From positions 1 to 21,687 of IMG/VR virus record IMGVR_UViG_3300013137_000116: DNA of 21,687 bases; one strand, written 5' to 3'. Under the pieces are notes generated by a model that saw nothing but the letters and a program-made list of their open reading frames with translations, did not search any database and was not told the DNA's origin. Position 1 is the stretch's first letter, and every line of letters starts with the position of its first letter. Below, one piece after another: positions 2,913 through 19,763 of this stretch. This DNA comes from a virus. Made by a program: the position numbers and the translations under genes.

Positions 2913-3632
2913 TCACTCCTTGTAATTATAAGACTTAATCTTTTGAATTAGCGCCAGTAAGTCTGGGGGCTCTCCAGAGTCTACGCCCTTGAACTGGCAT
3001 TTAGTCAGGTATTGGTCTGATGGTCCTAATCTGATCCACCGCTTTCCTGACTTCTCGTACACCTCCAGATGACCTACGACATCAACGATACCACTGGCTC
3101 TCTTCGCAAGCTGTGGTCCAAGCATAGGGCATATCTGGGTCTTGACATAGCCATCACTACGCTGGATATCATAGACAGCTTCCCAAGCATTGAAGATAAC
3201 ATTGATACCATAGGAGACAAGATCTCTCCAGTTATAGACTATGTCTATCATCTTAAAGGCAATGTCTCCATGCTCTTTAACCTCTGGGAACTCTTTCTTT
3301 CTTGTCTCTACGAACTGATGCAACAGAGACTGCGTCAGCTCACTAAGGTTATCAATGACCACATGCTTAAACGGGAACTTCTTTGTCCTGAAGTCCAGAT
3401 ACAACTCATCCATAATTTTATCGATCTTCCTGCCATTCAACACTGCCTTCTTAACATCAAAGAGATTTATCCCTTTGCCGAGGAGGGGTCCAATACCAGC
3501 CTCGGTGTTGATGACAAGAGTATCTTCAAGAGGAAGAGTCGTAGCCAGCGTCGTCTTGCCAACGCCAGGGTCTCCGTAGATGATGAGGCTAATGCCTCGC
3601 TCTAACTTATTTGGAGATTTCTCGATTTCCAT
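2913..3632 (-). CDS. Sak4-like RecA-fold ATPase (phage recombinase / single-strand annealing)
   Basis: This 239-aa protein shows a clear P-loop near the N-terminus, GDPGVGKTT (residues 20-28), after SLIIY. A Walker B-type strand follows at HVVID (90-94) with Asn95 and Glu98 after it. VIFNAWEAV around 155-163 is a later core strand of the RecA-like fold, and ICPMLGPQLAKRASGIVDVV follows. This is the AAA_24 / phage nucleotide-binding protein layout shared with Sak4 recombinases, which are shortened RecA/Rad51 relatives that anneal ssDNA with help from a partner SSB. The length (about 230-250 aa) fits. ATG 3632 has GGAGGCTGAAGA before it. A DUF669-like gene two genes downstream and a PD-(D/E)XK nuclease upstream support a recombination module. 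Confidence 0.8.
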   Translation of the reverse strand: MEIEKSPNKLERGISLIIYGDPGVGKTTLATTLPLEDTLVINTEAGIGPLLGKGINLFDVKKAVLNGRKIDKIMDELYLDFRTKKFPFKHVVIDNLSELTQSLLHQFVETRKKEFPEVKEHGDIAFKMIDIVYNWRDLVSYGINVIFNAWEAVYDIQRSDGYVKTQICPMLGPQLAKRASGIVDVVGHLEVYEKSGKRWIRLGPSDQYLTKCQFKGVDSGEPPDLLALIQKIKSYNYKE

Positions 3633-3643
3633 TCTTCAGCCTC

Positions 3644-3865
3644 CTAAACTTGAAAGAGATAATCTTTCAGGGTTCTGTAGTTATCAGAGAAGTCCTTCGC
3701 TCTGACTGTTTCATTGTTATAGAAGTCCATTGAAAGCTTCTTTACTTCTTTCGAGTCCTTGAATAACAATGTTGTCTTCTTGCCTTCTTTCCTCTTCCCC
3801 TCAAGCTTACATCCATTAGCCATCAGGAAAGAGGCTTCCCAAATAGACTGTGTTTCATGGTTCAT
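3644..3865 (-). CDS. DUF5659-like small protein
   Basis: A 73-aa protein with SIWEASFLMANGCKLEG, then a strand segment TTLLFKD, then SMDFYNNETVRAKDFSDNYRTLKDYL. The order (hydrophobic helix with a Gly turn, a basic hairpin ending in FKD, then a helix with FSDNYRTLK) resembles DUF5659 proteins, small proteins of unknown function common in phages and mobile elements. ATG 3865 has a strong AGGAGGAATAA before it. Its stop is TAG (3644-3646), and that stop is built into the Shine-Dalgarno site of the Sak4-like gene (TTTAGGAGG). The family link is by pattern only. Confidence 0.55.
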   Translation of the reverse strand: MNHETQSIWEASFLMANGCKLEGKRKEGKKTTLLFKDSKEVKKLSMDFYNNETVRAKDFSDNYRTLKDYLFQV

Positions 3866-4240
3866 TTATTCCTCCTGATGGGTAAGCAACATTGTGCTAT
3901 GGGTATTATCAACGATCTTCTTCATCTCAAGAGATACTGCAGGTGTGCAAGAAGCTATTATAGGGAGAACATTAGCTATCTCACCTTTCGCGTGGCGGCA
4001 GACTAACTTCGTATGGTAAAGATAATCCCCGGCAGTAGGTCTAAGAGTATAGCCCTTATGACCTGTGATAATGTTCCAACCGCTATTCCTCGCAGATCTT
4101 ATATGGACAGCTCCTCTTGTGCACTGTCCGTTAAACAAGATAGAAGCAATCTCCTCTAACCTCCAGTATCTTTTTCTCTTGGACATCATGAGCTTTACGA
4201 CTTTGTTAACAACGCTGGTCTTCTTTTTGTTTCTACGCAT
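3866..4240 (-). CDS. Winged-helix-like DNA-binding protein
   Basis: This 124-aa protein starts very basic (MRRNKKKTSVVNKVVKLMMSKRKR). It then shows a likely winged helix: YWRLEEIASIL (25-35), a turn, CTRGAVHIRSARNSGW (40-55) as the recognition helix, and a wing NIITGHKGYTLRP (56-68). Such proteins in phage replication operons act as regulators or as replication accessory DNA binders. ATG 4240 has AGGAG seven bases upstream; it lies inside the end of the ParB-like gene, with a 46-nt overlap. A later start at 4189 or 4186 would remove the overlap but lacks a good ribosome site and drops the basic leader. The stop abuts the DUF5659-like start. Confidence 0.6.
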   Translation of the reverse strand: MRRNKKKTSVVNKVVKLMMSKRKRYWRLEEIASILFNGQCTRGAVHIRSARNSGWNIITGHKGYTLRPTAGDYLYHTKLVCRHAKGEIANVLPIIASCTPAVSLEMKKIVDNTHSTMLLTHQEE

Positions 4241-5160
4241 ATCGTTTCTCCTGCTAAGTGTTGTTTAAGGTGTTTAATGAGGTTATTCTCGACAGCTACC
4301 ATTACTGCCTGTTCTTTAGAAGTAAAAAGTTTCAAAGGGTTCTTCTTTAGAAGCTTAATGAGGTAGTCGCAGTTAAGGACTATCTCCTGCCCTTCGAAGT
4401 TCTTCGTTACTTCATCTACCTTATCGTTGTCTATCTTTCTCCTTTCTATCTTTAATGGTTCCTTCCTCTCGATATTCCTGACAAGATTCTCTGTTTCTCT
4501 TGTATTGAGTTCATTGTCCTTAACAAACTTGGCAAGAGCTTCTTGCCTTTTATGGTCTGGTATTCTGGCTATTGCTTCAGCATGAGAAACTGTTATCTTT
4601 TCTTTTCCCCGCAATGTTCCTCCTGCGTCAGAAGCGTTAACCATCTCATGCTGAATCTTTGGGCTGAGACTGCCGTGAATCTTTAAGTATCCAGCAACCT
4701 TGCTCTTGCTCCAGTTCTTTTCTCCGAGAAATTCAGAGATTTGCCTGCACCCAATCCCTTGGTCTCCTCTAACATGAGGTCTGTGTCCACCGTCTGGACG
4801 CAGATGATTTTCAAGGAATCTCTTCACAGCCAACACTTGGTCCACCTGATAGATGGCATACTCTTCGTTTTGCATGCAGTTCTCATTGCCGAGAATGCGG
4901 AGCATGTTCTCATCAGATAGATCTTTGACTGGGATATCTGCGACATAATCGATGCCGAGGACTTCTTTGGCAGCCTGAAGCCTGTGGTGACCGTAGGCGA
5001 TTTGGTAGGTTCCATTGACTTTCCTGCAAATAATATTGTCCCAGAAGCCATCTTTCTCGATGGACTCCTTAAGAAGGACAACCTTCTCTTTGTTCAGCTT
5101 ACCCCCGTTGATCTCTTTCTTAAAGGGATTAGGCTGAAGGTCTTTTAACTTTATCTTCAT
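4195..5160 (-). CDS. ParB/Spo0J-like protein with N-terminal ParB domain and HTH
   Basis: The 321-aa protein opens with KIKLKDLQPNPF, a classic ParB N-domain start. It has SIEKDGFWDNIICRK, then YGHHRLQAAKEV (GHHR at 57-60, the nucleotide-binding box) and NENCMQNEEY (92-101). A helix-turn-helix follows (RQISEFLGEKNWSKSKVAGYLKI, about 139-161). The remainder is charged and helical. Family knowledge: ParB proteins are CTP-dependent clamps or, in phages and plasmids, DNA-binding nucleases and regulators. No ParA-like ATPase is in the window, so a DNA-processing or regulatory role is more likely than partition. ATG 5160 has AGGAGG four bases upstream. It lies in the recombination operon between a coiled-coil protein and a winged-helix protein. 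Confidence 0.82.
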   Translation of the reverse strand: MKIKLKDLQPNPFKKEINGGKLNKEKVVLLKESIEKDGFWDNIICRKVNGTYQIAYGHHRLQAAKEVLGIDYVADIPVKDLSDENMLRILGNENCMQNEEYAIYQVDQVLAVKRFLENHLRPDGGHRPHVRGDQGIGCRQISEFLGEKNWSKSKVAGYLKIHGSLSPKIQHEMVNASDAGGTLRGKEKITVSHAEAIARIPDHKRQEALAKFVKDNELNTRETENLVRNIERKEPLKIERRKIDNDKVDEVTKNFEGQEIVLNCDYLIKLLKKNPLKLFTSKEQAVMVAVENNLIKHLKQHLAGETICVETKRRPALLTKS

Positions 5161-5167
5161 TTTCCTC

Positions 5168-5422
5168 CTATCCGGTAAACCTTCCTGCTTTATACCATTT
5201 GCGGTTCTCTTCTGCTAATGTTCCAACGATCTTGGTAAGCTCTTTGATAGCTTCGGTGTTCCCATCAATCAGCTTCTCAACAAGCTCATCAATCTTCTCA
5301 AGCTCATCAAGTTTCTTCCCGACGGTATCAAACGTATCGTTAATCAGCTTCTCAAGCTCATCCAGCTTCTTGCCGACGGTATCAAACGTATCGTCGTAAT
5401 CTGGTTCAGGTACTTGCGTCAT
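5168..5422 (-). CDS. Small coiled-coil protein with duplicated 18-residue unit
   Basis: The 84-aa protein is almost entirely a predicted amphipathic helix. The unit DTFDTVGKKLDELEK occurs twice (residues 11-25 and 29-43), offset by 18 residues, and a degenerate third piece (IDELVEKLID) follows. The rest (AIKELTKIVGTLAEENRKWYK) continues the coil. This points to a self-associating coiled coil, perhaps a linker or scaffold in the replication machinery; no enzyme motif is present. The start is ATG 5422, not the GTG at 5431, because the GTG lies inside an almost perfect anti-16S sequence (AAGGAGGTGAT) that serves the ATG. The gene overlaps the end of the nuclease gene by 17 nt. Confidence 0.65.
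   Translation of the reverse strand: MTQVPEPDYDDTFDTVGKKLDELEKLINDTFDTVGKKLDELEKIDELVEKLIDGNTEAIKELTKIVGTLAEENRKWYKAGRFTG
5295..5394 (-). repeat. Tandem 46-nt direct repeat, period 54 nt
   Basis: Copy A at 5295-5340 and copy B at 5349-5394 differ at only three of 46 positions. The 54-nt period equals 18 codons and keeps frame, so it encodes the duplicated DTFDTVGKKLDELEK unit. A shorter related piece (cttctcaacaagctcatcaa) lies at about 5272-5291. The few differences point to a recent in-frame duplication. Confidence 0.85.
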
Positions 5423-6311
5423 CTGTATCACCTCCTTTATTCATTCTTGGTTCCTTTGAATAGTAAAGATCCAGCGTGAGTTGGTCTGGTTGATTTTGAA
5501 AGCATATCTTGGCATAAGTGCATTCGGTGTTAAAGTTCCAGCACTGGTCAGGGTTTCTGTACCACTCGTGAGTCTTACAACGGTTCAAGATATCTTTAGC
5601 CGTCTTCTTCAAGTCCTCCTCGTAGATGCCAAGTTCCTCGTCGTTGCGATAAGTAAAATGTCTTTTAAAGTAAAGCTCTGGTCTTGCCTTGTAGTCTGCC
5701 ATAATGCGGTAGCCGAAAGCGTGCATGTCGTCAGTGACCGTCTTTCTTAATAAAGGCTTCTTGATGAAGTCGTACATGACCCCGACCACCGGGTGACCAA
5801 GCTTCCGCATTGCCCAGATGTAGCCCGTGGCTTGGGGCGAGGTCTTCGCCCTGCGCTCGAACTGGGAGAAGGAAAGGCTTGTGGTCTTAATTTCTCTGAC
5901 CCATAGCCTATTTTCCTTGTCCTTAACCAAGCCATCAATCTTTCCTACAAAGTAGACCTGGGGAATTACAAGAACCCTGAACTCCATCTCAGGCTTGACC
6001 TCAAGGAAGTTATCCAAAGAAGAAGGGAAGTTGTGCCACATGCCAAGAGCCGTGTACTTTGCCAGCACTGCGTCCTCTGCTTCTGACGGAGAACACTTAG
6101 AGATCTCTTCATCCATCTGCTTTCTGATGTAGTCGATGATATCAGCGTTAGAAAACTTGCTGTAGAACATTTCAAAGCAGGTGTGGACGAGTGAACCGAG
6201 AGTGATCTGATGAGACTTGTGAAAGGGGATGTATCCGTCGATGTAATGCCACTTGTACTTCATGGGGCAACCACGATAAGTCGAAGCGGAGGAAGAAGAT
6301 ATTTCCAGCAT
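5406..6311 (-). CDS. PD-(D/E)XK nuclease of the Cas4/AddB-like (PDDEXK_1) family with four-cysteine cluster
   Basis: The 301-aa protein starts SSSSASTYRGCPMKYKW, the N-terminal motif of this family with Cys15. GSLVH (39-43) and EMEFR (108-112) come next, then GKIDG (Asp126), VREIKT (Glu140 and Lys142 of the E-x-K motif) and QATGY (Gln160, Tyr164; the Q-x3-Y motif). Near the C-terminus come Cys257, Cys264 and Cys270, spaced x6 and x5. One N-terminal and three C-terminal cysteines are how Cas4 and AddB hold a 4Fe-4S cluster that pins the nuclease domain. Expected role: exonuclease or endonuclease end-processing for recombination or replication. ATG 6311 follows AGAGG and directly abuts the stop of the small upstream ORF. 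It is the first large gene after the promoter at 6510-6537, with Sak4-like and SSB-like genes downstream. Confidence 0.85.
   Translation of the reverse strand: MLEISSSSASTYRGCPMKYKWHYIDGYIPFHKSHQITLGSLVHTCFEMFYSKFSNADIIDYIRKQMDEEISKCSPSEAEDAVLAKYTALGMWHNFPSSLDNFLEVKPEMEFRVLVIPQVYFVGKIDGLVKDKENRLWVREIKTTSLSFSQFERRAKTSPQATGYIWAMRKLGHPVVGVMYDFIKKPLLRKTVTDDMHAFGYRIMADYKARPELYFKRHFTYRNDEELGIYEEDLKKTAKDILNRCKTHEWYRNPDQCWNFNTECTYAKICFQNQPDQLTLDLYYSKEPRMNKGGDTDDAST
5427..5437 (-). promoter_or_regulatory. Extended Shine-Dalgarno site, AAGGAGGTGAT
   Basis: On the minus strand this reads AAGGAGGTGAT, almost the full complement of the 3' end of bacterial 16S rRNA, with ACAG between it and the ATG at 5422. 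It lies inside the end of the nuclease coding region. It decides the start of the coiled-coil gene and suggests that this small protein is made in high amounts. Confidence 0.75.
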
Positions 6312-6503
6312 TTAGTACCTCTGATGTTTACTGCAAAGTTTAGAATCTTTTTTCTCACACCCGCAGGAATGAGTTGAAGGGGAAGGGCGGTGAGGACCTT
6401 GGCTACCCTTTGGCAAGGGACCCTTCCCTAAAGAAGAAACCCCGTCGGAATTTGAAGTCCTAACGGGGTTCTGAGTTTCTTTTTTTATCCTCACCTTAGC
6501 CAT
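6312..6503 (-). CDS. Possible 63-aa Cys-containing small protein, leaderless if real
   Basis: An open frame of 63 codons runs from ATG 6503 to a TAA that abuts the nuclease start. The N-terminal half is basic and low in complexity (Gly/Pro/Ser); the C-terminus HSCGCEKKDSKLCSKH has Cys47, Cys49, Cys57 and His60, which could bind a metal. There is no Shine-Dalgarno site before the ATG. The predicted transcription start falls on or next to the A of the ATG, so it would be translated as a leaderless message. The same DNA folds into hairpins that could serve as a terminator or leader, and the odd composition may simply reflect that. I hold both readings open and rate the protein as the less certain one. 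Confidence 0.35.
   Translation of the reverse strand: MAKVRIKKETQNPVRTSNSDGVSSLGKGPLPKGSQGPHRPSPSTHSCGCEKKDSKLCSKHQRY
6389..6495 (-). ncRNA. Candidate structured RNA leader downstream of the promoter
   Basis: On the minus strand GGTGAGGA (6495-6488) and TCCTCACC (6396-6389) are perfect 8-base complements. They enclose a strong hairpin (6470-6438) and a second small hairpin, CCCTT-GCCA-AAGGG (6419-6406). A closing stem with two inner hairpins is a three-way-junction-like layout. It starts about 8 nt after the predicted transcription start and ends about 78 nt before the nuclease gene. It could be a regulatory leader, a small RNA or an attenuator. No known riboswitch class is recognised, and the pairing was found by eye only. 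Confidence 0.35.
6438..6470 (-). terminator. Hairpin with T-rich tail, possible intrinsic terminator or attenuator
   Basis: AACCCCGT (6470-6463 on the minus strand) pairs with ACGGGGTT (6445-6438). A short GGA/TCC extension lies across a small internal loop, and TCTTCTTT follows at once. It lies about 65 nt past the stop of the giant virion gene and about 35 nt past the predicted start of the leftward promoter. It may end late transcripts, attenuate the next operon, or both. The T-tract is interrupted by C, so termination may be partial. Confidence 0.5.
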
Positions 6504-6509
6504 AATCCC

Positions 6510-6537
6510 ATTATAGTCAGAAAAGCTATTTTGTCAA
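6510..6537 (-). promoter_or_regulatory. Near-consensus sigma70 promoter driving the replication/recombination operon
   Basis: The minus strand reads TTGACA (6537-6532), 16 bases, then TATAAT (6515-6510): both hexamers match the consensus exactly, with one base less than the optimal spacing. The -35 box overlaps the TGA stop of the 2367-aa gene at 6534-6536. The predicted start point is around 6503. It is the only such match I found in the window, at the boundary between virion and DNA-metabolism genes, which suits an early promoter read by host RNA polymerase. Confidence 0.8.
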
Positions 6538-9500
6538 GGCTTTTTTCCCCAGTCTATTTTTTTATCATTGTAAAGTTCTTTGATGTCAGTCCTGTTGTTC
6601 CTCATGAAATAAGAAACAGGATATCTGCGCTTGTTTCCTTCTCGCCTTAAGAACCCCCTGACTTGCGGGAGATCACTTCTCTGCTCTAACTCTTCCATCG
6701 TCAAGTTCCTGAACGGAGCTCTTTGAGCTGCTTTGTCAAACTTCTTGCTTGCTACCGCAGCCTTCATTATGCGGAATTCTTTAGAAGTAGCAACACCTGG
6801 CTCAAAGGATGCACCTGAATAATTAACACCACCAGCAAGGTTAAAGATCCTCATGAAAGAGTTAATAGCAGGATCCCCATTCCCATCCTTATCAACGATA
6901 GGTACCCCTCCGTCTACCTCAAGACCGATAGGAACTGCTAAATCGCTAAAGAGCTTATTAAATATGATACCATAGTTTTTCCAAGGATCTCCTTCTGGAA
7001 GATTAGGATCAGTAATCGGGTTTCCTCTCCAATCCTGGTTAGCAGCGATCTCTGTGAAAGTATTAAATAAGCCTATTTTTCCCAACGCCCAAGCATTTAT
7101 ACCTCTTCCTGTGTTAATACTGTAATCTCTTGTGACTGTCTGCGCCAGAGGATCTATGATAGAAGATGTTATGTCGATGAAGTCCCGTATAGGTCTAAAG
7201 AGCTGTGTATCGATATACTGAGGCTGCCAATATTGGTTTATTCTTCCAACTCTAACCTTATTCCAGTTTGTAGAGTCATTGTTAAATATCCATCTCTTCT
7301 TAGCAGCAAAGCCCTTCTCCCTCCCGATCTCTCCGAACTCGTCTTCGTCATCGTCGTCGAGAAAGCTTAAGATAAACTGCGTTATGCCTTTTGTAAGTAA
7401 GGCATAGAAGAATAGAACAGAAGTATCAAGCATCATCTGAGCGGACAGTATCCTCAAGTCCCTATCAACAAGATCTGCAGCTGTTATGGCATTAAGGTTC
7501 TTAGAGAACATGCCTGTCTTATAATCATAGTATCCAGCCTTCTTCAAACTCTTTCCAAGCAAAGGAACTTTACGAGCAAGAATAGAAAGATTGCGTAAAG
7601 GTCCTATGGCATAGCCTCTGGACATGGTAAGTATTCTGAGCCACTTTCCTTCATCGCTCATCAAGGAAGAATGAATCATGTTTGCCGTAGAATCGATATA
7701 CGCTACAGCGGCTCCCATAGCAGCTTCTTTATTAGGGAAAGCCCCGCTTGCCAAGTTCTTCTCATAAACAAGCTTTGTGGCATTATACATCTCTGGCTTA
7801 ACGATTTGTTCCATCATGGCAGAGTTAATCCCAAACCAAGACATCCACCAGTTGCTCATGCGCTCTCCACCGCTGGAACGCTCTGCAAAGGTAGCAGACT
7901 GGTTGTAGTCAAGGACTTGTCTCATCATGCTTTCATAAGACATCCCCATGCCACCAGCTTTTATCATGTCCTCAAGTAATTCATAACCTTCTGTCTGGGT
8001 CTCTGTTGTTTCTCCTCTCAGCATCTTCTGCCCAGTACCTTCCTTAAAGAAAGCAGCCTTAAATGTCACTGCAGGTACTTTAACCCCAAAGGTGTAAGCG
8101 GCTCTCGGCAAGAAAGTCCACTTGGATCCTGAGTTAAGCAAAGAGAATACGAGCATGGCAGGTAAGTTATCGAATGGGTTACCAGTCTTAATATTCCTTG
8201 CCATGTTAAGGAACTGGAACGCCTTCGCCATAGACTGGAAGTCAGGTCTATCAAACCACAGCGTATTGACCATATTGTTGACAGAAGAATACAGATAAGG
8301 TCTGGAATATATGCCCTTATTGTATTTAACAAGCCCTGAAGATTCCCGAGCCATGACATATCCAAGCTGATTAAGAATAGCCGCTGGCTCCAAAGCTTGG
8401 TCTTTTAATGCTTTCTGAAATAGTTTTGTTATCTCTAAAATAACAGGACTATCGGTGTATTCACATACCTTAAGTTCTTTAAGTTGAGTACGGATATCGT
8501 CATTGACAGCATCTCTGAACTCTTTATCCTTAAAATTAGCTGGAGCAAAGGCGTACCTGGAGCTACTGCCAAGTTTCCTTATAATGTTAGCCTGGTTAGC
8601 TGACATAGGGGACTTCACAGCATACTCAAAGTTATTATCCCAAAAGTTATCAACAGCTGTCCATCCTTCTTCGTAACCTGCTCCTGCAAAGGCATCATAG
8701 GTGTCAAACTCTGCCTTTGGTTGATCTACCGTAGAAGGACCTCCCTGCTTTCCTTTGAAGAAATTGACCCTCTCTTTGCCTTGAGCAGACGTTGGATCAT
8801 ACTTAAAAGTCCTCGGTTCATATCCTTCTTTAATCTTTTGATAAAGGTTAGTATGCGTATAAACTCCAGCCTTTATCATTGTCTCGAGGAATGTATTCTG
8901 GATATTTCCCTTAACATATCTCAGAATGTCTTGTAACTCCGTATCTTCAGCTACAGCCTCATCGGCTAACATCTGCCAGAAGATAGGGGTTCTCTTGTTC
9001 CTGAGAGTATTAGGATCGTTGCTTGTTCCATCTGGGTTATGGATCTGCCCTTCTCCAACGATACCATACTTTGCAAGATCTATTCCGTAACGGTTAACAA
9101 ACTTCATTACATATTTAACATAATTGTCCGTATTCTCTTTGGCATCTTTCTTTCCTATCCTATGAAATCCATCACCCTGTTCTGTATAAGAGATAATGCT
9201 GTCATCAGCTACGTATCCGTTGGTTGTCCACTTTCCTGTCATAACCTGCGGAGAGGCGTGAGCCATCAACTTGGCTGCCCAATCGAGCTCTTCCTGCAGC
9301 TCTTCCATCGTAGGAGCCCTTCCAAGCTTCTTAGCAAGATATTTCTTTCTGTTAGAAACAAATGCTGTCCAGGTTGTCTTAAACATGTGTTCAGCTGATG
9401 TCCTGAAAGAATCTTCCATCTTCTTGCCTGAGACAAGGTATTCCTTAATATCATCCGCTACCTTCCACTCATACTTCGTCTCCATTGCCGTATCAACCTT

Positions 9501-12500
9501 TTTCTTTCCCATCCACCATACGGCAGTGTCATAGATAAGAGGATTGCGGAGCATGTTTTGGAGAACAACGCCTAACGGACTGTCTGTCCTGGGAACTTCT
9601 TTCTCTACAGCGGTAGGCTTAGTTTGTTTCTTAGAAAACTCTTTAGGGTCTTTGACTTGAGTTACAAAAGAAGAAGGAGGAGTTCTTGGCTCTTCAGAGT
9701 TAAGGATAACTCCTAAATTTCCACCTGTCCCCTTGATGTCTTTAGAGAATTTAGATAGCTGGTGCGCTGCGTACTGTAACCCGAGCTCAATGTTCTTTTC
9801 TTCTCTAATAATAGCAATAACAGAATTAACTTGTTTTCTTACATCCTGATTATTATGAGCAAATATCTGAAGCTCTCCAATAAGCTTCTTCTTCATGTAA
9901 TCACGATACCTGTACATGAAGTCTAAAATCTGGTTTATCTTCTGAAGGTTTTCTCTCTGAGAAGTAAGCTCTGCTTTCTTTATTCTTTCAGAAGCAAACA
10001 TCATCTTAGGATCCTGCTTATACTTCTCATAGCTCCTTGCAGTTGCCAAGATATCCTGAGAACGCTGGTCTGTCTTTCCTTCCAGTTCTCCGCTTATCAT
10101 CATCTGATAAGCCTTCTCCATGCTTGGCATTGGTGTAACATTAGATGTTTTCTGACCTGAAGAATAAAGATATCTTTTATAAAAAGCACGGTCTATAGCA
10201 GAAACCTTCTGTTTGTTGTTTAATGCCCTCTCTATCTTGCGAACACGCTGTTCATACTTTGAAGTATCTTCTTTTTCCTTGCTAAGAGCTTCTTTCTTAG
10301 AAGAAACACCGAGAGCTGGAGGCTGTGCATAGCGTGGAGTGTGCTGAGATTTTAGAGGATTTATCTTCTCTATCTCTTCAACGTCCTTCTCTTCCTGTTC
10401 TGAAAGATAATCAAACTTCATCAAGGCTATGTAGTCACGTATCCTTTCAGATACAGCCTTTAAGTTAATAGCTTGATGACTTCCAGCATCATTAAGGATC
10501 TGCTGTTCTTCGTAAGATAGCTCAGTCCTTCCTTCGATAGAAGCTATAAGCGCTTCTTCGTTGGTAGGTTCTCTTTCCTTAGTTGCTTTCTCAACCAAGA
10601 ACTCTTCTTTAGGAACAGATGTAACCAAAGACTTAATATCAAGGAGAATCCCACGGACTTCGCCTTCCTCAAGTCCTGCACGCTTGGCGACCTCAGCTAT
10701 CGTTGGCTCTTTAACACGCATCTCTCTGATAATATCTCTGAGAGTCTTGAGTTTAGACTGATACTGAACCTCTACTTCATCTTCTATCTCTTCTAAGGGA
10801 ATAGGTTTATCGTCTTCTTGAGCTATCTGTTCGAACTCTTGCTTTTCTTCTTCAGGCTTTACAGGAACAAGTCCTTTTCCTTCAACCCACTCTTCTTGAA
10901 GCTTAGGAGTTCCTTGGACACCAGGAGTCATGCGCACATCTCTCTTTGCAAAGATATTCTTTTGCTGAGGAGCTACTTCTGGAGGATACGGTGTACCTGT
11001 TGCAGCCTCTATCATCTGAGCTATCTCTGGAGTAACAACTGAACCTTGTAAAGGAGTGACATCCATGGGAGCTGAACTCTGCCAAGGCTCACGCTTGTCT
11101 TGCCCATACTTTTTAGAGAAGTCAAATTCCTTCTGTTTTGCTTCAAACTCTCTCCTCACTCCAACGTTTACTACCCCCTTAATGAAGTTGTCTACATCAT
11201 CCTCTGTCCATTTAACTTTAAGCCACTGCTGAACCCACAGCGCCAGGTCTTTCTTCAGTCGCTTGAACCACGAAATGTTGGCTAAGTCCCCGTAGCGCTC
11301 TGCCCACCTGGCTGCTAATTCCATGAGTATTTGCTCATCTGAAGTGAATCCATAGTCCTTAGCCATAGCGTCAACGTTAGCATACCCAGAGTCCTTTAGA
11401 AGCACTGGGGCTGCTCTGTAAAGCTGTTCTCTGGCTCTTCCAAGAATCTCTTGAAACTGAGCTTTAGCTTCAGGATTTAATGAATCAAGAAGGACATGGA
11501 ATCCTCGGTGCGTGACCTCGTGAAGTGCTTTGCTACGGGCATTCTCTGGAGTTACATTCTCTCCAACGATAGCTATCCTGTCAGTCTCTGGATCATAGTA
11601 GGCTTCTATATCACTTGTTACTTGTTCTTTAAGCTGTTTACCATCTCGAGATACCTGAACTACTTTACCAACAGGAAGATCTTTCTTGCTAATGATGTCA
11701 ATGCGGTCAAGAAATGCTTTAGGGAGTGAACTTAAAGCTTTATAAATAGTATTAAATTTAGTGTTCTTAAACTCTCCGACAATCTGCTCAGCCTGTATAC
11801 TTCCTTCAAGCGCTGCTTGAGCATGCTCTGGTGAGATTACCTCATTGGGAGTCTTAGGAGTCTCGATCTTGGCATATTCTTCAAGGATAGCCAGTCTACC
11901 CTTTTCAGCTTCACCCATAGGTTGCCCTGCTCCCCGTAATACGTTACGAGAGACGTGAAGAACGTCTTTAAGGCTTATGGGCTTCTTCCCCATTCCTTCA
12001 AGGCGCATGTTCATAGAATGGAACCTGCGAGCTATGGTAGAAGCATCCTCCTGCCTTCCTTGAGCCATAGGGTTAATAAATAATACTTTAGGTCCTGATT
12101 CAACTTCGCCTGCGACACGTGGAGCTTGAGCCGTCTGGACAACATCAAATCTCTTTACCTGTTCATTTACATCAAACCATTTCCCGATCTCTTCTACAGC
12201 TGTTCCTTCGTTATCTATTCCCTGTATCTTCTGAACAAGATAGCTTAAAGTATCAGGATGAAGATCTTTGGCATTCCCTTTGATATCCGAGATATTTAAT
12301 GCTTGTTGAATGATAGGAATAGCTGCTTGCGTCTGTGCATTGTTTACAGGTTTAAAATTATTAACGGTAGTTGTTGCAGGTCCTGAAGTTTCAGTAGTAA
12401 CCTCTTGAAGAACATTTGATGTCTGACCAACGGTTGCTGTCCCTAATTGTTCTCTCAAAGCCTGCCACTCTTTAGAAGGCTTTTGTTCTGATATGGCTTT

Positions 12501-13637
12501 TAGTTCAGCTAACTTTTGTTCTTTAGTTAGTTTCGTTGATTTAGTTAGCAGTCCTCCAACTCCTCCGAATTGTCCTTCAGAAAAGAATCCCATAGCAGCA
12601 GAGTTTCTTATATTCTCCCATGAAGGAGGAGTTTGAGATCCAATATCTTCTGCCAGAGCTTGAGATCCTTCGACAACAGCGCCAGCACCACCAGCCTCCA
12701 AGAATCCTAAAGCACCTTTAGCAACTTTCCCTTTTATGCCCTTAAGCGCTATATTCTTTAATCCAGGAAGAGGAATGGCTTTTGACAATACCCCAAACGT
12801 AAGAACATTCTCAACCATTTCAAGACCGCCAGCGACTCCAGTTGCAGCTAAAGCTCTATTAAGGTCTCCTCTTGTTATGTTCTCTCTTCCTTTGTTTCTC
12901 TCTAAATCAGGATAAATCTGACCACCTTCTTGAACCTGACCATAAGCTCCCATAGCAAGCACACCAGCTATCTTCCCAGCAACATTCTTAATAGCCTGCT
13001 CTCTTATGGCTTCAGCTCCTAATTTCTTTCCTACAGAAGAAAAAGCGATCTTTAAGGATTGTTTCGTTATAGCATCTGCTATAAACTTATTTGCAAGCAC
13101 CTTTGCTCCCACACCAGTTGCAGCAGCCGCTGTGGCGACTTCTGCTCCTCCTAATGCAGAAGCAATAGCAAGTGGTACAGCCATAGTTACCTGACCTGCT
13201 CCGTATCCAAAGTTCTGTCCAAGGAAGTCTAAGATAGCACCAGGGTTCTTTTTATTTGTAACTTGATCTACCATTGTATCCCAATGTCCAGCTCTCTCTG
13301 CAATGGCAGTATCAGGATCTTCTGTATATCTCTTATTGGCTAATTCATTCTCTTTATGAAAAGCCTCTTCCATTGGCTTTATGCCTAAATACTTTCCAGC
13401 AAATTCTCCTGAGCCAGTTACTATTCCTGGAACTTGGGTAAAAGATTGTTTATACCCTGTTCCCCAGCTTTTAAAGAATCCACGATTGTCAGATTTCGGC
13501 TTTAGAATATCGTCAAATAACCCAGATTGCTGGACAGATGGTTGAGGAGAAACTTTAGGCTGTAAAATATCATCAAACAATCCTGTTGGAGCAGGTTTTG
13601 TTTGAACAGGAGAAATAACATCGTCAAATAATCCCAT
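6534..13637 (-). CDS. Giant polyvalent / ejection-type virion protein with zincin metallopeptidase motif
   Basis: This 2367-aa protein is by far the largest product. Order of parts: three GLFDD motifs (2-6, 19-23, 39-43) separated by Pro/Gln linkers; a region (about 130-365) with several Ala/Gly-rich hydrophobic stretches that could insert into membranes; a domain with HEVTH (706-710) and DEQILMELAARWAE (767-780), the HExxH-plus-downstream-Glu layout of zincin peptidases found in phage polyvalent proteins; a long charged helical middle (roughly 900-1350); and a long C-terminal part with a hydrophobic segment near 2060-2090 followed by DDDDEDE. Family knowledge: such proteins are packaged and enter the cell with the DNA, like T7 gp16 or the polyvalent proteins of other phages. 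The start has no strong Shine-Dalgarno site beyond AGGAGTGTT upstream, only 8 nt after the previous stop. The catalytic role and ejection are inference. Confidence 0.75.
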   Translation of the reverse strand: MGLFDDVISPVQTKPAPTGLFDDILQPKVSPQPSVQQSGLFDDILKPKSDNRGFFKSWGTGYKQSFTQVPGIVTGSGEFAGKYLGIKPMEEAFHKENELANKRYTEDPDTAIAERAGHWDTMVDQVTNKKNPGAILDFLGQNFGYGAGQVTMAVPLAIASALGGAEVATAAAATGVGAKVLANKFIADAITKQSLKIAFSSVGKKLGAEAIREQAIKNVAGKIAGVLAMGAYGQVQEGGQIYPDLERNKGRENITRGDLNRALAATGVAGGLEMVENVLTFGVLSKAIPLPGLKNIALKGIKGKVAKGALGFLEAGGAGAVVEGSQALAEDIGSQTPPSWENIRNSAAMGFFSEGQFGGVGGLLTKSTKLTKEQKLAELKAISEQKPSKEWQALREQLGTATVGQTSNVLQEVTTETSGPATTTVNNFKPVNNAQTQAAIPIIQQALNISDIKGNAKDLHPDTLSYLVQKIQGIDNEGTAVEEIGKWFDVNEQVKRFDVVQTAQAPRVAGEVESGPKVLFINPMAQGRQEDASTIARRFHSMNMRLEGMGKKPISLKDVLHVSRNVLRGAGQPMGEAEKGRLAILEEYAKIETPKTPNEVISPEHAQAALEGSIQAEQIVGEFKNTKFNTIYKALSSLPKAFLDRIDIISKKDLPVGKVVQVSRDGKQLKEQVTSDIEAYYDPETDRIAIVGENVTPENARSKALHEVTHRGFHVLLDSLNPEAKAQFQEILGRAREQLYRAAPVLLKDSGYANVDAMAKDYGFTSDEQILMELAARWAERYGDLANISWFKRLKKDLALWVQQWLKVKWTEDDVDNFIKGVVNVGVRREFEAKQKEFDFSKKYGQDKREPWQSSAPMDVTPLQGSVVTPEIAQMIEAATGTPYPPEVAPQQKNIFAKRDVRMTPGVQGTPKLQEEWVEGKGLVPVKPEEEKQEFEQIAQEDDKPIPLEEIEDEVEVQYQSKLKTLRDIIREMRVKEPTIAEVAKRAGLEEGEVRGILLDIKSLVTSVPKEEFLVEKATKEREPTNEEALIASIEGRTELSYEEQQILNDAGSHQAINLKAVSERIRDYIALMKFDYLSEQEEKDVEEIEKINPLKSQHTPRYAQPPALGVSSKKEALSKEKEDTSKYEQRVRKIERALNNKQKVSAIDRAFYKRYLYSSGQKTSNVTPMPSMEKAYQMMISGELEGKTDQRSQDILATARSYEKYKQDPKMMFASERIKKAELTSQRENLQKINQILDFMYRYRDYMKKKLIGELQIFAHNNQDVRKQVNSVIAIIREEKNIELGLQYAAHQLSKFSKDIKGTGGNLGVILNSEEPRTPPSSFVTQVKDPKEFSKKQTKPTAVEKEVPRTDSPLGVVLQNMLRNPLIYDTAVWWMGKKKVDTAMETKYEWKVADDIKEYLVSGKKMEDSFRTSAEHMFKTTWTAFVSNRKKYLAKKLGRAPTMEELQEELDWAAKLMAHASPQVMTGKWTTNGYVADDSIISYTEQGDGFHRIGKKDAKENTDNYVKYVMKFVNRYGIDLAKYGIVGEGQIHNPDGTSNDPNTLRNKRTPIFWQMLADEAVAEDTELQDILRYVKGNIQNTFLETMIKAGVYTHTNLYQKIKEGYEPRTFKYDPTSAQGKERVNFFKGKQGGPSTVDQPKAEFDTYDAFAGAGYEEGWTAVDNFWDNNFEYAVKSPMSANQANIIRKLGSSSRYAFAPANFKDKEFRDAVNDDIRTQLKELKVCEYTDSPVILEITKLFQKALKDQALEPAAILNQLGYVMARESSGLVKYNKGIYSRPYLYSSVNNMVNTLWFDRPDFQSMAKAFQFLNMARNIKTGNPFDNLPAMLVFSLLNSGSKWTFLPRAAYTFGVKVPAVTFKAAFFKEGTGQKMLRGETTETQTEGYELLEDMIKAGGMGMSYESMMRQVLDYNQSATFAERSSGGERMSNWWMSWFGINSAMMEQIVKPEMYNATKLVYEKNLASGAFPNKEAAMGAAVAYIDSTANMIHSSLMSDEGKWLRILTMSRGYAIGPLRNLSILARKVPLLGKSLKKAGYYDYKTGMFSKNLNAITAADLVDRDLRILSAQMMLDTSVLFFYALLTKGITQFILSFLDDDDEDEFGEIGREKGFAAKKRWIFNNDSTNWNKVRVGRINQYWQPQYIDTQLFRPIRDFIDITSSIIDPLAQTVTRDYSINTGRGINAWALGKIGLFNTFTEIAANQDWRGNPITDPNLPEGDPWKNYGIIFNKLFSDLAVPIGLEVDGGVPIVDKDGNGDPAINSFMRIFNLAGGVNYSGASFEPGVATSKEFRIMKAAVASKKFDKAAQRAPFRNLTMEELEQRSDLPQVRGFLRREGNKRRYPVSYFMRNNRTDIKELYNDKKIDWGKKP
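13494..13634 (-). repeat. Three N-terminal GLFDD[IV] motif repeats of the giant protein
   Basis: The coding DNA holds three diverged copies of a unit encoding GLFDDVISP, GLFDDILQPK and GLFDDILKPK (protein residues 2-10, 19-28, 39-48), each followed by a Pro/Gln/Ser linker. The motif is conserved while the linkers differ, as expected for short linear binding motifs and not a recent DNA duplication. What binds them is unknown; a virion or scaffold partner is a reasonable guess. Confidence 0.75.
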
Positions 13638-14932: not shown

Positions 14933-15142
14933 TTATTCTCCATATCCGCAGCCTTCAGGTAACCCGCCAGGAATGAGCTTCATCTCTTCCGCGGTCAAGC
15001 ACCATGAAGGTCTGCTTTCATAAGTTGTACACAAGTTGTCTTCTCCCAGAAAAGGACACTTCCTCTTTGTCCTTATAAAGTTAAGTTTAGAATCTGTAAT
15101 AACTGACAAATAACAACACTTCCCGCACTTCTTACATGACAT
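14933..15142 (-). CDS. CxxCxxCC-type (YkgJ/UPF0153-like) metal-binding small protein
   Basis: A 69-aa protein with MSCKKCGKCC (Cys3, Cys6, Cys9, Cys10), then KCPFLGEDNLCTTYESRPSWC (Cys29, Cys38, Cys48) and Cys65. The spacing of CxxCxxCC, CPFL, C-x2-YE-x-RP and C is the signature of the YkgJ / UPF0153 zinc-or-iron cluster family, here in a minimal version. Family members bind metal, and their cellular role is poorly known. ATG 15142 follows AAGGAAAC. It lies between a fibre-like gene and an internal virion gene, so it may be a virion component, a metal-dependent maturation factor or a passenger gene. It ends in GYGE with the TAA overlapping the next ribosome site region. Confidence 0.75.
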   Translation of the reverse strand: MSCKKCGKCCYLSVITDSKLNFIRTKRKCPFLGEDNLCTTYESRPSWCLTAEEMKLIPGGLPEGCGYGE

Positions 15143-15152
15143 GTTTCCTTCT

Positions 15153-15761
15153 TTATATCCCTACTGCAAACCAGTTAATAGGACTATCTGTTGTAAAATC
15201 TCTTAAAGTTATCTGACTACCACTATCCCTTGAAGCACAAACAGTTTGAGAAGCATACCCCCCAGAACCATTCCGACATGCTATTGCTGTAAAAGATATA
15301 GAAGAAGTAAACGCAAGATTCGTAATGGCTTGACTTGAAACGCCAGTCATTGGGAATATCCCAAAAGCCATTTTAAGGGTTGAGCCAGCAGTTCCTCTTT
15401 CCGTTGAAGAAGAAGCACTTGTTCCATAATCTAATATACTCCATACAGTAGTTGCAGCAGCAGCAGGAAGATTAGCCGCAGGAATCACTCCAGCCCCAGC
15501 GGGAATGCTCCCAAGATTAACAAAGTTAGATCCGCTATTAATAGTAAAAAGATTCCCTTCACCAGTCACTACAGAAGCTGTCTTTGTCCCTGCTCCGTCA
15601 TCCTGGATTACAAGCTCTCCCTCAGAGACATTAGACAAAGAAGGGGCATCAACAATGTTCTTAACCCCAAGAGCTTTATCACAGATACTCCTGATAATCT
15701 CATTAAGAGACGGTAGGTCTCCTGCTTCCATGCCTGTAAGGTCAACTGGTTTGTCTATCAT
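15153..15761 (-). CDS. Tail fibre-like protein with C-terminal gp53-type domain
   Basis: The 202-aa protein has an N-terminal helical anchor-like part (MIDKPVDLTGMEAGDLPSL and on to about 40). A Gly/Ser/Ala/Thr-rich middle follows, typical of trimeric fibre shafts. The C-terminal region has SSQAITNLAFTSSISFTAI, then ITLRDFTTDSPINWFAVGI. The closing pattern (aromatic strand, then INWFAVGI at the very end) resembles phage tail-fibre tip domains of the gp53-like type, which end in WxAxG. The ATG overlaps the stop of the nozzle-like gene by four bases (ATGA), with only a weak ribosome site, so translation is probably coupled. Host recognition is the likely role; the carbohydrate or protein target cannot be told. 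Confidence 0.6.
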   Translation of the reverse strand: MIDKPVDLTGMEAGDLPSLNEIIRSICDKALGVKNIVDAPSLSNVSEGELVIQDDGAGTKTASVVTGEGNLFTINSGSNFVNLGSIPAGAGVIPAANLPAAAATTVWSILDYGTSASSSTERGTAGSTLKMAFGIFPMTGVSSQAITNLAFTSSISFTAIACRNGSGGYASQTVCASRDSGSQITLRDFTTDSPINWFAVGI

Positions 15762-18700
15762 ACAATCACCGTAAATGGGCTGTAATATCCTTCCACTTCG
15801 CTTATGCGGAAGTCATACAGGTCGTTCTTTGTTATAGTCACATCTATCTGTTTACCAAACGCTGTATCCTGAAAGTAACTATCCCAACGTTCAGGGTCAG
15901 AAGCCAACGATACGTTAAACGCTCCTGTGGCATTCTCTGTTGACCAGGATAATATGAACGAACCGTTGGAGCCTTCATGCACCGTTGATATCTTCTTAAA
16001 CAGCTTATCCAAAGTAGGCTCATTGAAGTTCCTAAAGCCCACATTGTATATAAAGTTAACACTTGTCTCTGCTGAAGTAGCGCCTCTTGAGTAATTAAAC
16101 TTACAGACATATCCATTAGTAAAATAAACTAAAGGATTAGTAACCATAGAATCTGTAGCTGTTAAATAAGCTTTATATTGAAAGAAAGTATTAGCTGTAG
16201 AGGCTATGATGCTGCCGTTGGGGTCGCTTAAAGCGGCGCTCCACGATGCAGCAGTGCAAGCAGTAGCCGTAGCAGCTGCCCGAGTGTAGAATTGTACATT
16301 GTCAGACCCTTCGATATCCTCGTTCCAATAGATCTTATCCAGAGACTCTGCGCTGATTTCCATCACAGGAGATGTCCAAGTCCCTGCAGTATATGTCTGA
16401 GTAGAGGCTTTATTGTAATCTTTCATCTGCCCAAGTATCTTCTTATAGAGGCTCATTGTCACAGAAGGCGGAGATCCTGCCGTACTTGAGGCTGCAGAGA
16501 GAGTAACGCTATGCGTATGAGGTCCCTCATAGCCAGTAGCATGATACCCGTCATTCCCCCAAGAAGCGCTCTCTGTAGAGGTAGTGAATGTTCCTACTAC
16601 GTGCGTGTGAGAACCTACGTAAGCTGTACTGCTGGATGCCATTACTACTGTAGGAGTACCAGTTCCTACCTTCAATGCATACCCTTCATAAGTAGCACTG
16701 CAAGCTATCCACCCATTGCTGGGAGTTCCTGCAGAACAATAAAGAGCATAGCAATATTTATCTACTCCATCCCATGTATCTGACTCTCCTATCTTCTTAA
16801 TAAACCCTACTGCCACATGATCTAACTCCCAGGAGTCAAGAGTCTGTTGAGAAGTAGTCCCTGTTACCATGTGATTGTGACCCCACCGAGGTCCATTCTC
16901 TCCGCTGTCTGATTGCGCTAAATAACCACCTGCCGTACCTGTAGGTATATTAAAAGTATGGCTATGCGTAGAAGAAGATACAAGAGCTAAGTCCGCTGTA
17001 CTTGGAACAACATAATACCCAACTTCCGTTGAGAGCTGTACCCATCCCGTAGGAGGAGTAGACTGATCCCACATGACAATAGCCCCATCAGGGAACTCAT
17101 ACTCTGTTCCTGTAGCATTCCTCTTGAACAGTCTATACTTAACATGTCTTGGCAAAGGAGTAGAAGCAGCTGAAGCAGAAGAAACCTCATGCGTATGAGC
17201 TGCTATAGCATTAGGGCTTCCATCCCCAAGATTACAGGTAGTCCCATACCACATAGAAATAGACCCTGAAAGAGTATGCGTATGACTTGTCCCTGCAGCT
17301 GTTGTAAGGGCAGTAGCAGATATCTTAATAAGCCTATCTTGATATCCTGTAACCTCTGTCCATCCTGTCCCTGGAGAAGTTACTGTTGTGTCCCAAAAGA
17401 AGCATATATTCTCGGGAATAGCAGAAGCTGAAGAAGTTGCCCCTAATGTGATGTAAGGCTCATTCTCAGTCCCTCCTATGAAGATACCATCTGCAGCAGT
17501 ACTTGTAGATGCAGTTCCTGCATTGACCTCTGTCTTAGTTCTCAGTTTATAGGTTAATTCTGTATCCTGCTCTTTGACAACATAACCCGTTGCGGAATCC
17601 CCATAGTATAAGTCTCCAGCCTCATCATCTCCTACGCGTGAAGCAAAGCAATTAGCCCCTGTAAGAGTAGAGCTTGTCCAGTTGTCATAGCTTAATGCTT
17701 CTCTCTTAAAGTTATATCTCATAATCCTATCATGGTGGAGAGAGGCATTCACCCTGTCTGTATAAGCGGCTATAAAATTCCCGTTATGATAGAACCCTAC
17801 AACATCAGAGTAATTACCGGGAAGCATATCATTAGTATCAAACTCATCAAAGACAGGCTTTGCTCCGGCTCCATCGAATAAGTACCAGTGATCCCATCCC
17901 AGGAATACCACACCGTTGGGTGTCTGAGTTACGGACCATGGAGCTACACACCCTATCCAGGCAATAGGATCATCCGCATACCAGGTTGTAGGATCCGCAC
18001 CGGAGACAGGAGAAGTGACATGAAGCTTCCTGATAGTATTCTTCTTGATACAGACCATAACTCCCAGCTGAATAGGGATACCCATGATCTCGTCACCGTC
18101 ATCTGGAGAGATATCCATATAGTCAAGATTTGTAGTTTCTTGGATGTAATGAGGCAAGTAAACGTTGGAATAATATATCTTATTAGGATAAGTCGTATTG
18201 CCGGATATAAACAATCTCTCCCTGTGAAGAGTTAACATGCTTCCTTTAGGCATATCATCTGTAACTGATGGATAAGCTGCCCCAAGAGCTGCATCCGCCT
18301 TAGTATCTGCGTAAGTGGTTGTGGTATTATCAGTAAGCTCAACAAGAAGCTTCAAAGAGCTTCCTCCGCCTTCTGTTCTATAAATCCTTCTCTTGTCAGT
18401 TCCAACTGGTCCAAGAGGAATATGACTTAAGGCAAGACTACCAGAAGTAGTACTTGTAATAGAATTGCTCACGGCTCCGCTAACATATTGATCCGCTGTC
18501 CCGATCCCCATAGTAACCGCATAATAATAAATAGCACCTGTATCAGCACTTCCTGAAGCAGTGCTTGTGATAGCCTTTAAAGCTCCAAGTTCCCAAGTCT
18601 TGAGATTAGTCGTATCCCCATCCCACACCCAAGGATTGTCATATCCATTAGAACAGATAAGTAAGTCTTTATACGTAACGAATGATGCTCTCTTGCCGGT

Positions 18701-19018
18701 TGTAAGACCTGTACGAATGTTCGCTGTAGTACCAGTATCTGAGATATAGATCCCAAAGGTATCGTTTAGTCCTACCCAGTACGCACCGCCAGAAGAAGTA
18801 TAATATCTATAAAGACCTGTCATAGCGTAAGAACCTACGCTGGCTGTATTTAGATAAGTAACACAGGCTCTCTTATCTACAGCCCCAGGCTCTTGTTCAA
18901 ACCTACAGTTCTGAGCAACTTCTACCCATCTGTCTTTAAGGTCTAAGTCCTCAACCTTATTGTTCATGCCGGGTATAGTCTTAATATACCACTTTCTTAA
19001 TTCTGCCATTAGTCCCAT
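15758..19018 (-). CDS. Large tail hub/nozzle-like protein with inserted HxH receptor-binding-like modules
   Basis: The 1086-aa protein starts AELRKWYIKTIPGMNNKVED, then DRWVEVAQNCRFEQEPGAVDKR, a pattern of podovirus tail nozzle or stabilisation proteins. Repeated strands with WGLN/WVWDGDT/WYADDPIAW-like aromatics follow, consistent with a beta-propeller. A beta-sandwich-like segment (about 150-255, YYYAVT to TTTTYADTKAD) is inserted early. From about 534 to 861 there are three modules, each with two HxH motifs: 579/581 and 608/610; 685/687 and 714/716; 804/806 and 834/836. The C-terminal 220 residues return to a beta-rich part ending in YYSPFTVIV. HxH motifs of this kind bind iron in T4 tail fibre tips (gp37). 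ATG 19018 follows AGGAACGTGTAAT; an in-frame ATG three codons later is possible. It directly follows the adaptor-like gene, as gp12 follows gp11 in T7. Confidence 0.7.
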   Translation of the reverse strand: MGLMAELRKWYIKTIPGMNNKVEDLDLKDRWVEVAQNCRFEQEPGAVDKRACVTYLNTASVGSYAMTGLYRYYTSSGGAYWVGLNDTFGIYISDTGTTANIRTGLTTGKRASFVTYKDLLICSNGYDNPWVWDGDTTNLKTWELGALKAITSTASGSADTGAIYYYAVTMGIGTADQYVSGAVSNSITSTTSGSLALSHIPLGPVGTDKRRIYRTEGGGSSLKLLVELTDNTTTTYADTKADAALGAAYPSVTDDMPKGSMLTLHRERLFISGNTTYPNKIYYSNVYLPHYIQETTNLDYMDISPDDGDEIMGIPIQLGVMVCIKKNTIRKLHVTSPVSGADPTTWYADDPIAWIGCVAPWSVTQTPNGVVFLGWDHWYLFDGAGAKPVFDEFDTNDMLPGNYSDVVGFYHNGNFIAAYTDRVNASLHHDRIMRYNFKREALSYDNWTSSTLTGANCFASRVGDDEAGDLYYGDSATGYVVKEQDTELTYKLRTKTEVNAGTASTSTAADGIFIGGTENEPYITLGATSSASAIPENICFFWDTTVTSPGTGWTEVTGYQDRLIKISATALTTAAGTSHTHTLSGSISMWYGTTCNLGDGSPNAIAAHTHEVSSASAASTPLPRHVKYRLFKRNATGTEYEFPDGAIVMWDQSTPPTGWVQLSTEVGYYVVPSTADLALVSSSTHSHTFNIPTGTAGGYLAQSDSGENGPRWGHNHMVTGTTSQQTLDSWELDHVAVGFIKKIGESDTWDGVDKYCYALYCSAGTPSNGWIACSATYEGYALKVGTGTPTVVMASSSTAYVGSHTHVVGTFTTSTESASWGNDGYHATGYEGPHTHSVTLSAASSTAGSPPSVTMSLYKKILGQMKDYNKASTQTYTAGTWTSPVMEISAESLDKIYWNEDIEGSDNVQFYTRAAATATACTAASWSAALSDPNGSIIASTANTFFQYKAYLTATDSMVTNPLVYFTNGYVCKFNYSRGATSAETSVNFIYNVGFRNFNEPTLDKLFKKISTVHEGSNGSFILSWSTENATGAFNVSLASDPERWDSYFQDTAFGKQIDVTITKNDLYDFRISEVEGYYSPFTVIV
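16436..17419 (-). repeat. Three tandem HxH tail-collar-like modules within the nozzle-like gene
   Basis: Modules begin near residues 534 (IPENICFFWD), 642 (FPDGAIVMWD) and 753 (KYCYALYCSAG). Each has a PxxGW-type strand (SPGTGW, PPTGW, TPSNGW), then two HxH motifs 29 or 30 residues apart, then a closing strand ending in RLFKR, GFIKK or SLYKK. Spacing between modules is 106 and 119 residues. The DNA copies are diverged, so the duplication is not recent. Confidence 0.85.
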
Positions 19019-19019
19019 A

Positions 19020-19763
19020 TTACACGTTCCTGTAAGATTTCATTATAAGTTCATCATCTTCCCGTTCGTTCTTTCTCTCAGTGACATAGTCGCTGATCTT
19101 CTTAAAGTACTTGCTCCAGAAATCATTAGCCCTGTCTCCCCATCCCCTGTCCTCTAATCCAGTGGCTGTAGCAAAGTCTATGATTGCCGGGTGTAAACCA
19201 GAAGGTATCGTTGGAGAAGCACTGTCTGTTGAGACATCCGTGTGCGTGTACGCGTAATAGACCTTGATATAGTTAGTCCCTGAATTGTCAGCATCAGGCG
19301 GAGGATATAACCCAAACACATCTTCCTCCCTGCTCCAGTAATAATCTGTAGGAGTAGAAGTGTTAGAAGTGTAGTTGTAGGTCGTTACCGTGCTGGCTGT
19401 GGTTGAATAGGTATACCCTATCAGAGATTGCCACGCTGGGTTCTGAACATCAAGCTCTTCCCGGGTTGTAGGATTAAGCCTAACAAAGTCTGTTCCATCT
19501 TCTTTGAAATACACCTCAGTGATCGCGTAGCAGGCTGTAGAGAGAGCCGTAGAGATTGTATACTCATTGGAGCAGGCTGATACAGTGTTCGCTGTGCAGG
19601 AGATACTGGAGATATAACCGGTAGTCCTTAAACACTTAGTCCTCCAAGATAAATCCTTAGCCCCTTGATTAACATAAGCATTGATCTCGGCATCTGTCCA
19701 GAAGGCTGCGGTTGTTTCCCCGAGTCTCTTTCTTACAGCATTTCTTAATTCCAGTAAAGTCAT
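19020..19763 (-). CDS. Head-tail adaptor-like protein
   Basis: The 247-aa protein begins MTLLELRNAVRKRLGETTAAFWTDAEINAYVNQGAKDLSWRT, the N-terminal helical pattern of phage adaptor proteins (a helix with LRxxVRxRL, then W-x-D-AEI-x-YVNQG). A beta-rich middle full of Thr, Ser and Tyr follows (about 50-175), and a C-terminal helical part has HPAIIDFATATGLEDRGWGDRANDFWSKYFKKISDYV. This is the expected fold order of gp11/gp6-type connectors, which form a ring between portal and tail. ATG 19763 has AGGAGGAACA upstream. The gene sits directly before the nozzle-like gene with a 1-nt gap, which supports the assignment. Confidence 0.7.
   Translation of the reverse strand: MTLLELRNAVRKRLGETTAAFWTDAEINAYVNQGAKDLSWRTKCLRTTGYISSISCTANTVSACSNEYTISTALSTACYAITEVYFKEDGTDFVRLNPTTREELDVQNPAWQSLIGYTYSTTASTVTTYNYTSNTSTPTDYYWSREEDVFGLYPPPDADNSGTNYIKVYYAYTHTDVSTDSASPTIPSGLHPAIIDFATATGLEDRGWGDRANDFWSKYFKKISDYVTERKNEREDDELIMKSYRNV

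Follow-up and report, generated by a model that had tools for sequence, protein, structure and literature searches.

The window analysed here, the whole 21,687-nt stretch of IMG/VR record IMGVR_UViG_3300013137_000116, is a 21.7-kb fragment from an uncultured phage, and it carries on its minus strand a 1086-aa open reading frame (P0001) that directly follows the gene for a tail adaptor of the SU10_adaptor family (Table 1). The adaptor gene is itself preceded by a 637-aa frame that is cut by the contig end (19772-21685, minus strand) and holds two laminin-G/ConA-like domains; such a laminin-G pair sits inside the nozzle in the related locus L004 (near residue 138) and is divided between two separate genes in L041. 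Also on the minus strand, and among virion genes, lies a 69-aa Cys-rich protein that starts with MSCKKCGKCC and by its look is of the YkgJ metal-chelating type (14933-15142). A 2367-aa protein (6534-13637, minus strand) probably belongs to the internal virion proteins that are ejected, and its residues 680-777 match M78 metallopeptidase below the threshold (E 0.0016); a ParB-like protein adjoins a PD-(D/E)XK exonuclease at 4195-5160 and 5406-6311 (minus strand).

The best reading of P0001, not a proven one, is that of a podophage-type tail nozzle, the kind represented by T7 gp12, P22 gp10, and SU10 gp17. The sequence-only reading had described the host protein as nozzle-like, and this description is supported by the adaptor neighbour (PF24175), which is also found directly upstream of the nozzle gene in L041 and L009, as well as by the podophage tail folds matched by a weak model. 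Full-length AF2 prediction with 10 sequences was poor (pLDDT 41) and was set aside for geometry, and podophage tail chains (E1004, T7, Kp9) came out on top when this model was searched with Foldseek, with E values from 1.6e-5 to 9e-4. The sole PDB match of a profile built from ten relatives was 8jov_A (E 0.015), a six-chain virion-associated protein that we take to be the nozzle of phage GP4, and the head closure Hc3 family phrog_8040 matched three relatives (best 6.5e-11). Nozzles of this family are hexameric. By analogy with SU10 and T7, after which the domains are named here, residues 1-526 would represent the start of the platform and a propeller with an Ig-like insertion.

Table 1. Positions of the nozzle-like protein, its parts, and the related genes discussed in the text. 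Positions refer to the window unless another locus is named.
Feature	Residues	Position	Strand	Basis or remark
Tail adaptor, SU10_adaptor family (PF24175)		19020..19763	(-)	Pfam, E 2.7e-19
Nozzle-like protein P0001	1086 aa	15758..19018	(-)	ORF, adaptor neighbour, profile and Foldseek matches
Nozzle N-terminal part	1-526	17441..19018	(-)	Alignment of relatives
Ig-like insertion in nozzle N-terminal part	about 140-255			Matches 8jov_A
Inserted cassette, three tandem collar/HxH modules	534-860	16439..17419	(-)	Missing in L009 and L040; AF2
Module 1	534-639	17102..17419	(-)	Profile-profile homology
HxH 1a, HTH	579-581	17276..17284	(-)	
Module 1 variable loop, predicted receptor-facing	582-607	17198..17275	(-)	28% mean pairwise identity, 24 nozzles
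HxH 1b, HTH	608-610	17189..17197	(-)	
Module 2	642-746	16781..17095	(-)	Profile-profile homology; clearest collar signature, FPDGAIVMWDQSTPPTGW
HxH 2a, HSH	685-687	16958..16966	(-)	
Module 2 variable loop	688-713	16880..16957	(-)	30% mean pairwise identity; low-pLDDT tip
HxH 2b, HNH	714-716	16871..16879	(-)	
Module 3	753-860	16439..16762	(-)	Profile-profile homology
HxH 3a, HTH	804-806	16601..16609	(-)	
Module 3 variable loop	807-833	16520..16600	(-)	29% mean pairwise identity; low-pLDDT tip
HxH 3b, HTH	834-836	16511..16519	(-)	
Nozzle C-terminal part	870-1086	15761..16411	(-)	Aligns across all complete relatives
Fibre-like gene in L009		L009:8230-9042		Directly after insert-less nozzle
Fibre-like gene in L040		L040:5533-6249		Directly after insert-less nozzle
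Fibre-like gene in L042		L042:6198-6953		Directly after insert-less nozzle
Pas28, Actinoplanes phage phiAsp2 (L083, NC_005885)		4273-8148		Neighbour of Pas29
Pas29, Actinoplanes phage phiAsp2 (L083, NC_005885)		8181-10991		Neighbour of Pas28

Six HxH motifs start at residues 579, 608, 685, 714, 804, and 834 of the 1086-aa frame, forming three pairs with within-pair spacings of 29, 29, and 30 residues. On recount, this is exactly what had been claimed for positions 16436-17419 (residues 534-861), and the triplication claimed alongside it proved real at the level of module-to-module profile homology. The composition of the protein would lead to 0.5 HxH motifs, and six were reached in 0 of 20,000 shuffles. 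The three ~105-aa modules that hold the pairs are mutually homologous (profile-profile E 4e-17, 1e-20, and 4e-14) and have diverged to about 20% identity with one another, each having a core with an FP.GAI.MW....P.GW stretch and a closing VxFRLIKK strand. In the 24 HxH nozzles, the 12 histidines reached a mean pairwise identity of 99.3%. The nozzle body followed with 50-59% and the module cores with 45%, and the loops that separate the two HxH motifs of a pair had 28-30%. When 63 modules of all three types were pooled, exactly four columns were invariant, and these were the four histidines. Invariant histidines together with variable loops are, judged from the alignments, the pattern of a metal-pinned scaffold presenting variable loops.

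Profile searches also upheld the proposal that the modules are of the gp37-tip type, through the HxH pattern. The best PDB match of the module profile was the iron-binding tip of T4 gp37 (2XGF, E 8.6e-4), followed by SU10 7z47_I (E 0.67), and no match to an unrelated family came up. The gp37 match was lost after histidine masking or removal of the HxH loop, indicating that the similarity rests on the HxH pattern, and homology to gp37 beyond the histidines was therefore dropped as proof. By eye, gp37 shares with the modules a collar-like start (YPIGAPIPW...VPAGF) and a closing strand (IAFNYIVRLA) in addition to the HxH motifs. The module core by itself matched Pas28 (E 5e-4) and Pas29 (E 3e-4) of the Actinoplanes phage phiAsp2, and there was a weak match to a collar protein (0.04). 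The phage tail collar domain PF07484, whose P.GAI..W....P.GW signature is present in the modules, matched two to three members weakly (best E 0.005 among the 63 modules and 0.042 among 22 inserts), below the curated cut-off in the single case where the cut-off was shown, and module 2 matched the tail collar fibre family phrog_1800 (E 0.007).

Some 46 related loci were available from IMG/VR. No relatives were found in the genome contigs searched, and cultured phages gave no match of useful strength when the whole protein, its insert, the nozzle of an insert-less relative, and the adaptor were used as tblastn queries; the yield was limited to Microcystis phage MaAM05, with a weak match of the N-terminal part, and to tail-fibre matches below the threshold. 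In the nozzles of these loci, the insert lies between two fixed anchors, GGTENxPxIEIG on the left and GTWTSP on the right, which are separated by 343-419 aa in complete HxH nozzles and by 24 aa in L009 and L040, versus 351, while L042 has a different domain of ~200 aa at this place. In a third state, the three module cores are kept without HxH motifs; modules 1 and 2 have shorter hairpins, and module 3 contains a larger domain, which in L022 is weakly similar to the galactose-binding F5/8 domain. Other small insertions, with the HxH pairs retained, occur in the C-terminal part (L064 and L067) and inside module 3 (L012 and L021). Counted per module in the 36 complete nozzles, HxH motifs followed the pattern (2,2,2) in 23 cases and (1,2,2) in one (L017, with HGEH), and the remaining 12 nozzles, three insert-less ones included, had none or one stray motif. 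Five changes between the HxH and core-only states were mapped on the nozzle-body tree, at least four of them forced by well-supported branches. A role as metal loader for the YkgJ-like protein was considered and rejected, as small ORFs of this kind are located after the nozzle in L006, L022, and L043 whether or not HxH motifs are present.

AF2 prediction of the insert alone, based on 28 homologues, gave a pLDDT of 83.7 and a pTM of 0.80. Given that each module accounts for about 31% of the chain, this pTM indicates a fixed mutual arrangement of the modules; loose beads should score lower. Foldseek found no match of the insert in the PDB (best E 0.058), where a single-chain search may miss a three-chain fold, and the sole strong matches in BFVD were Pas29 (E 1.1e-11) and Pas28 (E 2.7e-11), both with prob 1.00 and with TM values of 0.46 and 0.48, respectively, between models that are predicted on both sides. 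Pas28 and Pas29 have exactly three tandem modules per chain with HxH counts of 4+4+4, in Pas29 as ladders with spacings of 7,7,32 / 7,7,31 / 7,7,30. The record of Pas29 reads "possible receptor recognizing protein; contains HXHY motifs; similar to phage TuIa tail fiber", and that of Pas28 is without a note. In profile-profile comparison, the nozzle insert and the Pas family were collinear over the first two modules and the beginning of the third (E 2.5e-14). In both, a single chain holds three tandem modules with the same number of HxH motifs in each (2+2+2 in 23/24 nozzles), whereas the Pas proteins belong to a tail gene cluster rather than being nozzle inserts, and have four HxH motifs per module versus two. 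The 4+4+4 arrangement is mostly kept in IMG/VR relatives of Pas28 and Pas29. The distant actinophage-type relatives L104 and L106 have 3+4+3, contrary to what would be expected from a strict ladder rule; in L106, one rung is missing in two modules, in register. Loci L104-L109 (e.g., L106:3983-5341) encode proteins of ~430-450 aa that consist of almost nothing except three tandem HxH modules with 3+4+3 motifs.

We consider it likely that a pseudo-trimer of the gp37-type tip, formed by a single chain and predicted to have two metal sites of six histidines each, is present on every nozzle subunit. This reading is based on the presence of a cassette, its triplication, the invariance of the histidines, the variability of the loops, the all-or-none distribution of HxH motifs, the AF2 prediction of a single unit, and the exclusion of a separate fibre gene described below. 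From these we infer a metal, a pseudo-threefold geometry, receptor binding, and six copies per nozzle. The three tandem modules of one chain would form a receptor-binding tip inserted in each subunit of the hexameric nozzle, each module consisting of a collar-like core and a hairpin whose outgoing and returning arms have one HxH motif each. By analogy, the modules of one chain would close round a pseudo-threefold axis in the manner of the three chains of T4 gp37 or of the SU10 short tail fibre; motifs 1a, 2a, and 3a would contribute to one six-histidine metal site and motifs 1b, 2b, and 3b to a second, with iron as the metal suggested by the same systems, and the variable hairpin loops at the tip end would touch the host. 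With the triplication inside one chain, a six-fold nozzle could carry a trimeric tip and would need neither a separate fibre trimer nor a docking site for one. A pseudo-threefold in JBD30 was discarded as a precedent, since it concerns capsid axes.

Known tips differ from this arrangement in how the three-fold unit is assembled. In T4 gp37 (2XGF), the sites are made by three identical separate chains, each contributing one long HxH needle, in contrast to the three diverged modules of one chain inside a nozzle protein, which differ from a homotrimer and are predicted to pack as one unit. SU10 has an SU10-type adaptor beside its nozzle, as in the window, and two HxH pairs per chain, but trimers of separate gp16 are docked on a loop of the nozzle protein gp17 (7Z47; PMC9509320), while here the tip would be part of the nozzle chain. 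The two His pairs of the gp16 trimers, the same number as per module here, have been proposed to bind Fe2+, and SU10 has six tips per nozzle (PMC9509320). The nozzle family studied here seems to have built an SU10-type short-fibre tip into the nozzle chain. In Alteromonas phage R22Y, likewise a podophage, the tail fibre gp12 has multiple HxH motifs for which iron binding is predicted; however, gp12 is a homotrimeric fibre from a separate gene with HxH motifs spread along the chain (PMC11705849).

The sequence-only reading had pictured three tandem HxH devices with pairs aligned across the subunits of the hexamer. The modules would then be independent receptor-binding domains, beads on a string that act multivalently and each pair with the same module of neighbouring subunits, an arrangement with which separability of the modules by sequence and their short linkers agree, as does the lining up of HxH tips between chains in gp37 (PMC11705849). 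We regard it as unlikely, however, because an isolated single chain reaches the pTM given above, modules always number three, and Pas28 and Pas29 repeat the triplet with equal HxH counts in each module. Moreover, nozzles with one or two HxH modules are expected for beads on a string and not for a shared axis, and the all-or-none distribution of the motifs therefore favours a shared axis. Triplets also occur outside nozzles, in siphophage-type tail proteins and in the near-triplet-only proteins of ~430-450 aa, which again argues against beads.

Comparison of gene content connects the proposed pseudo-trimer with host binding. Directly downstream of the nozzle, all three insert-less relatives (L009, L040, and L042) have a homologous fibre-like gene, which is conserved over its first ~143 aa and variable at its end, and the copy in L009 matches the second domain of Mtd (8e-6). 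In L009, a radical SAM gene is also located nearby (3239-4510). The fibre-like gene was found in none of 11 insert-bearing records of 21-55 kb each that were searched over their full length. If relatedness is ignored, a split of 3 versus 11 has a chance of 1 in 364, and at least two of the three insert-less nozzles represent independent cases on the tree. The insert, a cassette, and a separate fibre gene exclude one another in these records. The earlier idea of a receptor-binding device, recast as such a cassette, gains sequence-level support from the hypervariable loops and from this exchange. A metal-pinned triplet could also serve the nozzle as a structural brace or a sensor instead of binding a receptor, in keeping with the view that HxH iron sites stabilise fibres (PMC9509320), and the receptor role of the triplet is one that we only infer. 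Nevertheless, this alternative appears quite improbable, given that the cassette is swapped for other tips, as by the F5/8-type-like insertion in module 3 of L022, that it is missing in three relatives with a separate fibre-like gene, one of them with an Mtd-like domain, and that no other part of the protein varies as much as its loops.

Compared with the pseudo-trimer, a four-histidine zinc or iron site formed by each module from its own two HxH motifs, with triplication as a mere repeat, is very improbable: two motifs 28-35 residues apart would suffice for it, but the 7-residue ladder of four HxH motifs per module in Pas28 and Pas29 fits rungs between modules, the one-module relative L110, whose six HxH motifs recur at spacing 7 like those of an ordinary homotrimeric fibre, fits stacked rungs, and the T4 and SU10 relatives coordinate, or are proposed to coordinate, metal between chains (PMC11705849; PMC9509320).

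In the literature searched, in which subscription journals were thinly covered, we found no description of a single-chain HxH triplet and no mention of the single-chain triplication in Pas28 and Pas29. In published descriptions, iron-bound HxH tips are trimers assembled from separate chains. We are inclined to think, with somewhat less assurance than for the nozzle subunit itself, that a fold known only as an obligate homotrimer, in which the chains share the metals, has been converted by triplication within one gene into a single-chain pseudo-trimer. Unrelated tail proteins, namely a podophage-type nozzle and an actinophage tail protein, would use this pseudo-trimer as a portable cassette for receptor binding, and it would settle the mismatch between a threefold tip and a sixfold nozzle and replace the fibre gene. 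If true, a monomeric HxH tip would be far easier to produce, mutate, and crystallise, with the ~430-450-aa triplet proteins as near-minimal single-chain tips well suited for expression. It would also allow each His rung to be changed one module at a time, and such changes could directly address the "Trojan horse" iron question of what the metal contributes when the phage binds its host. In this nozzle family, a built-in metal-pinned host-binding tip probably takes the place of a separate fibre protein, which would show a route by which phages can build the tip into the hub and drop the separate fibre.
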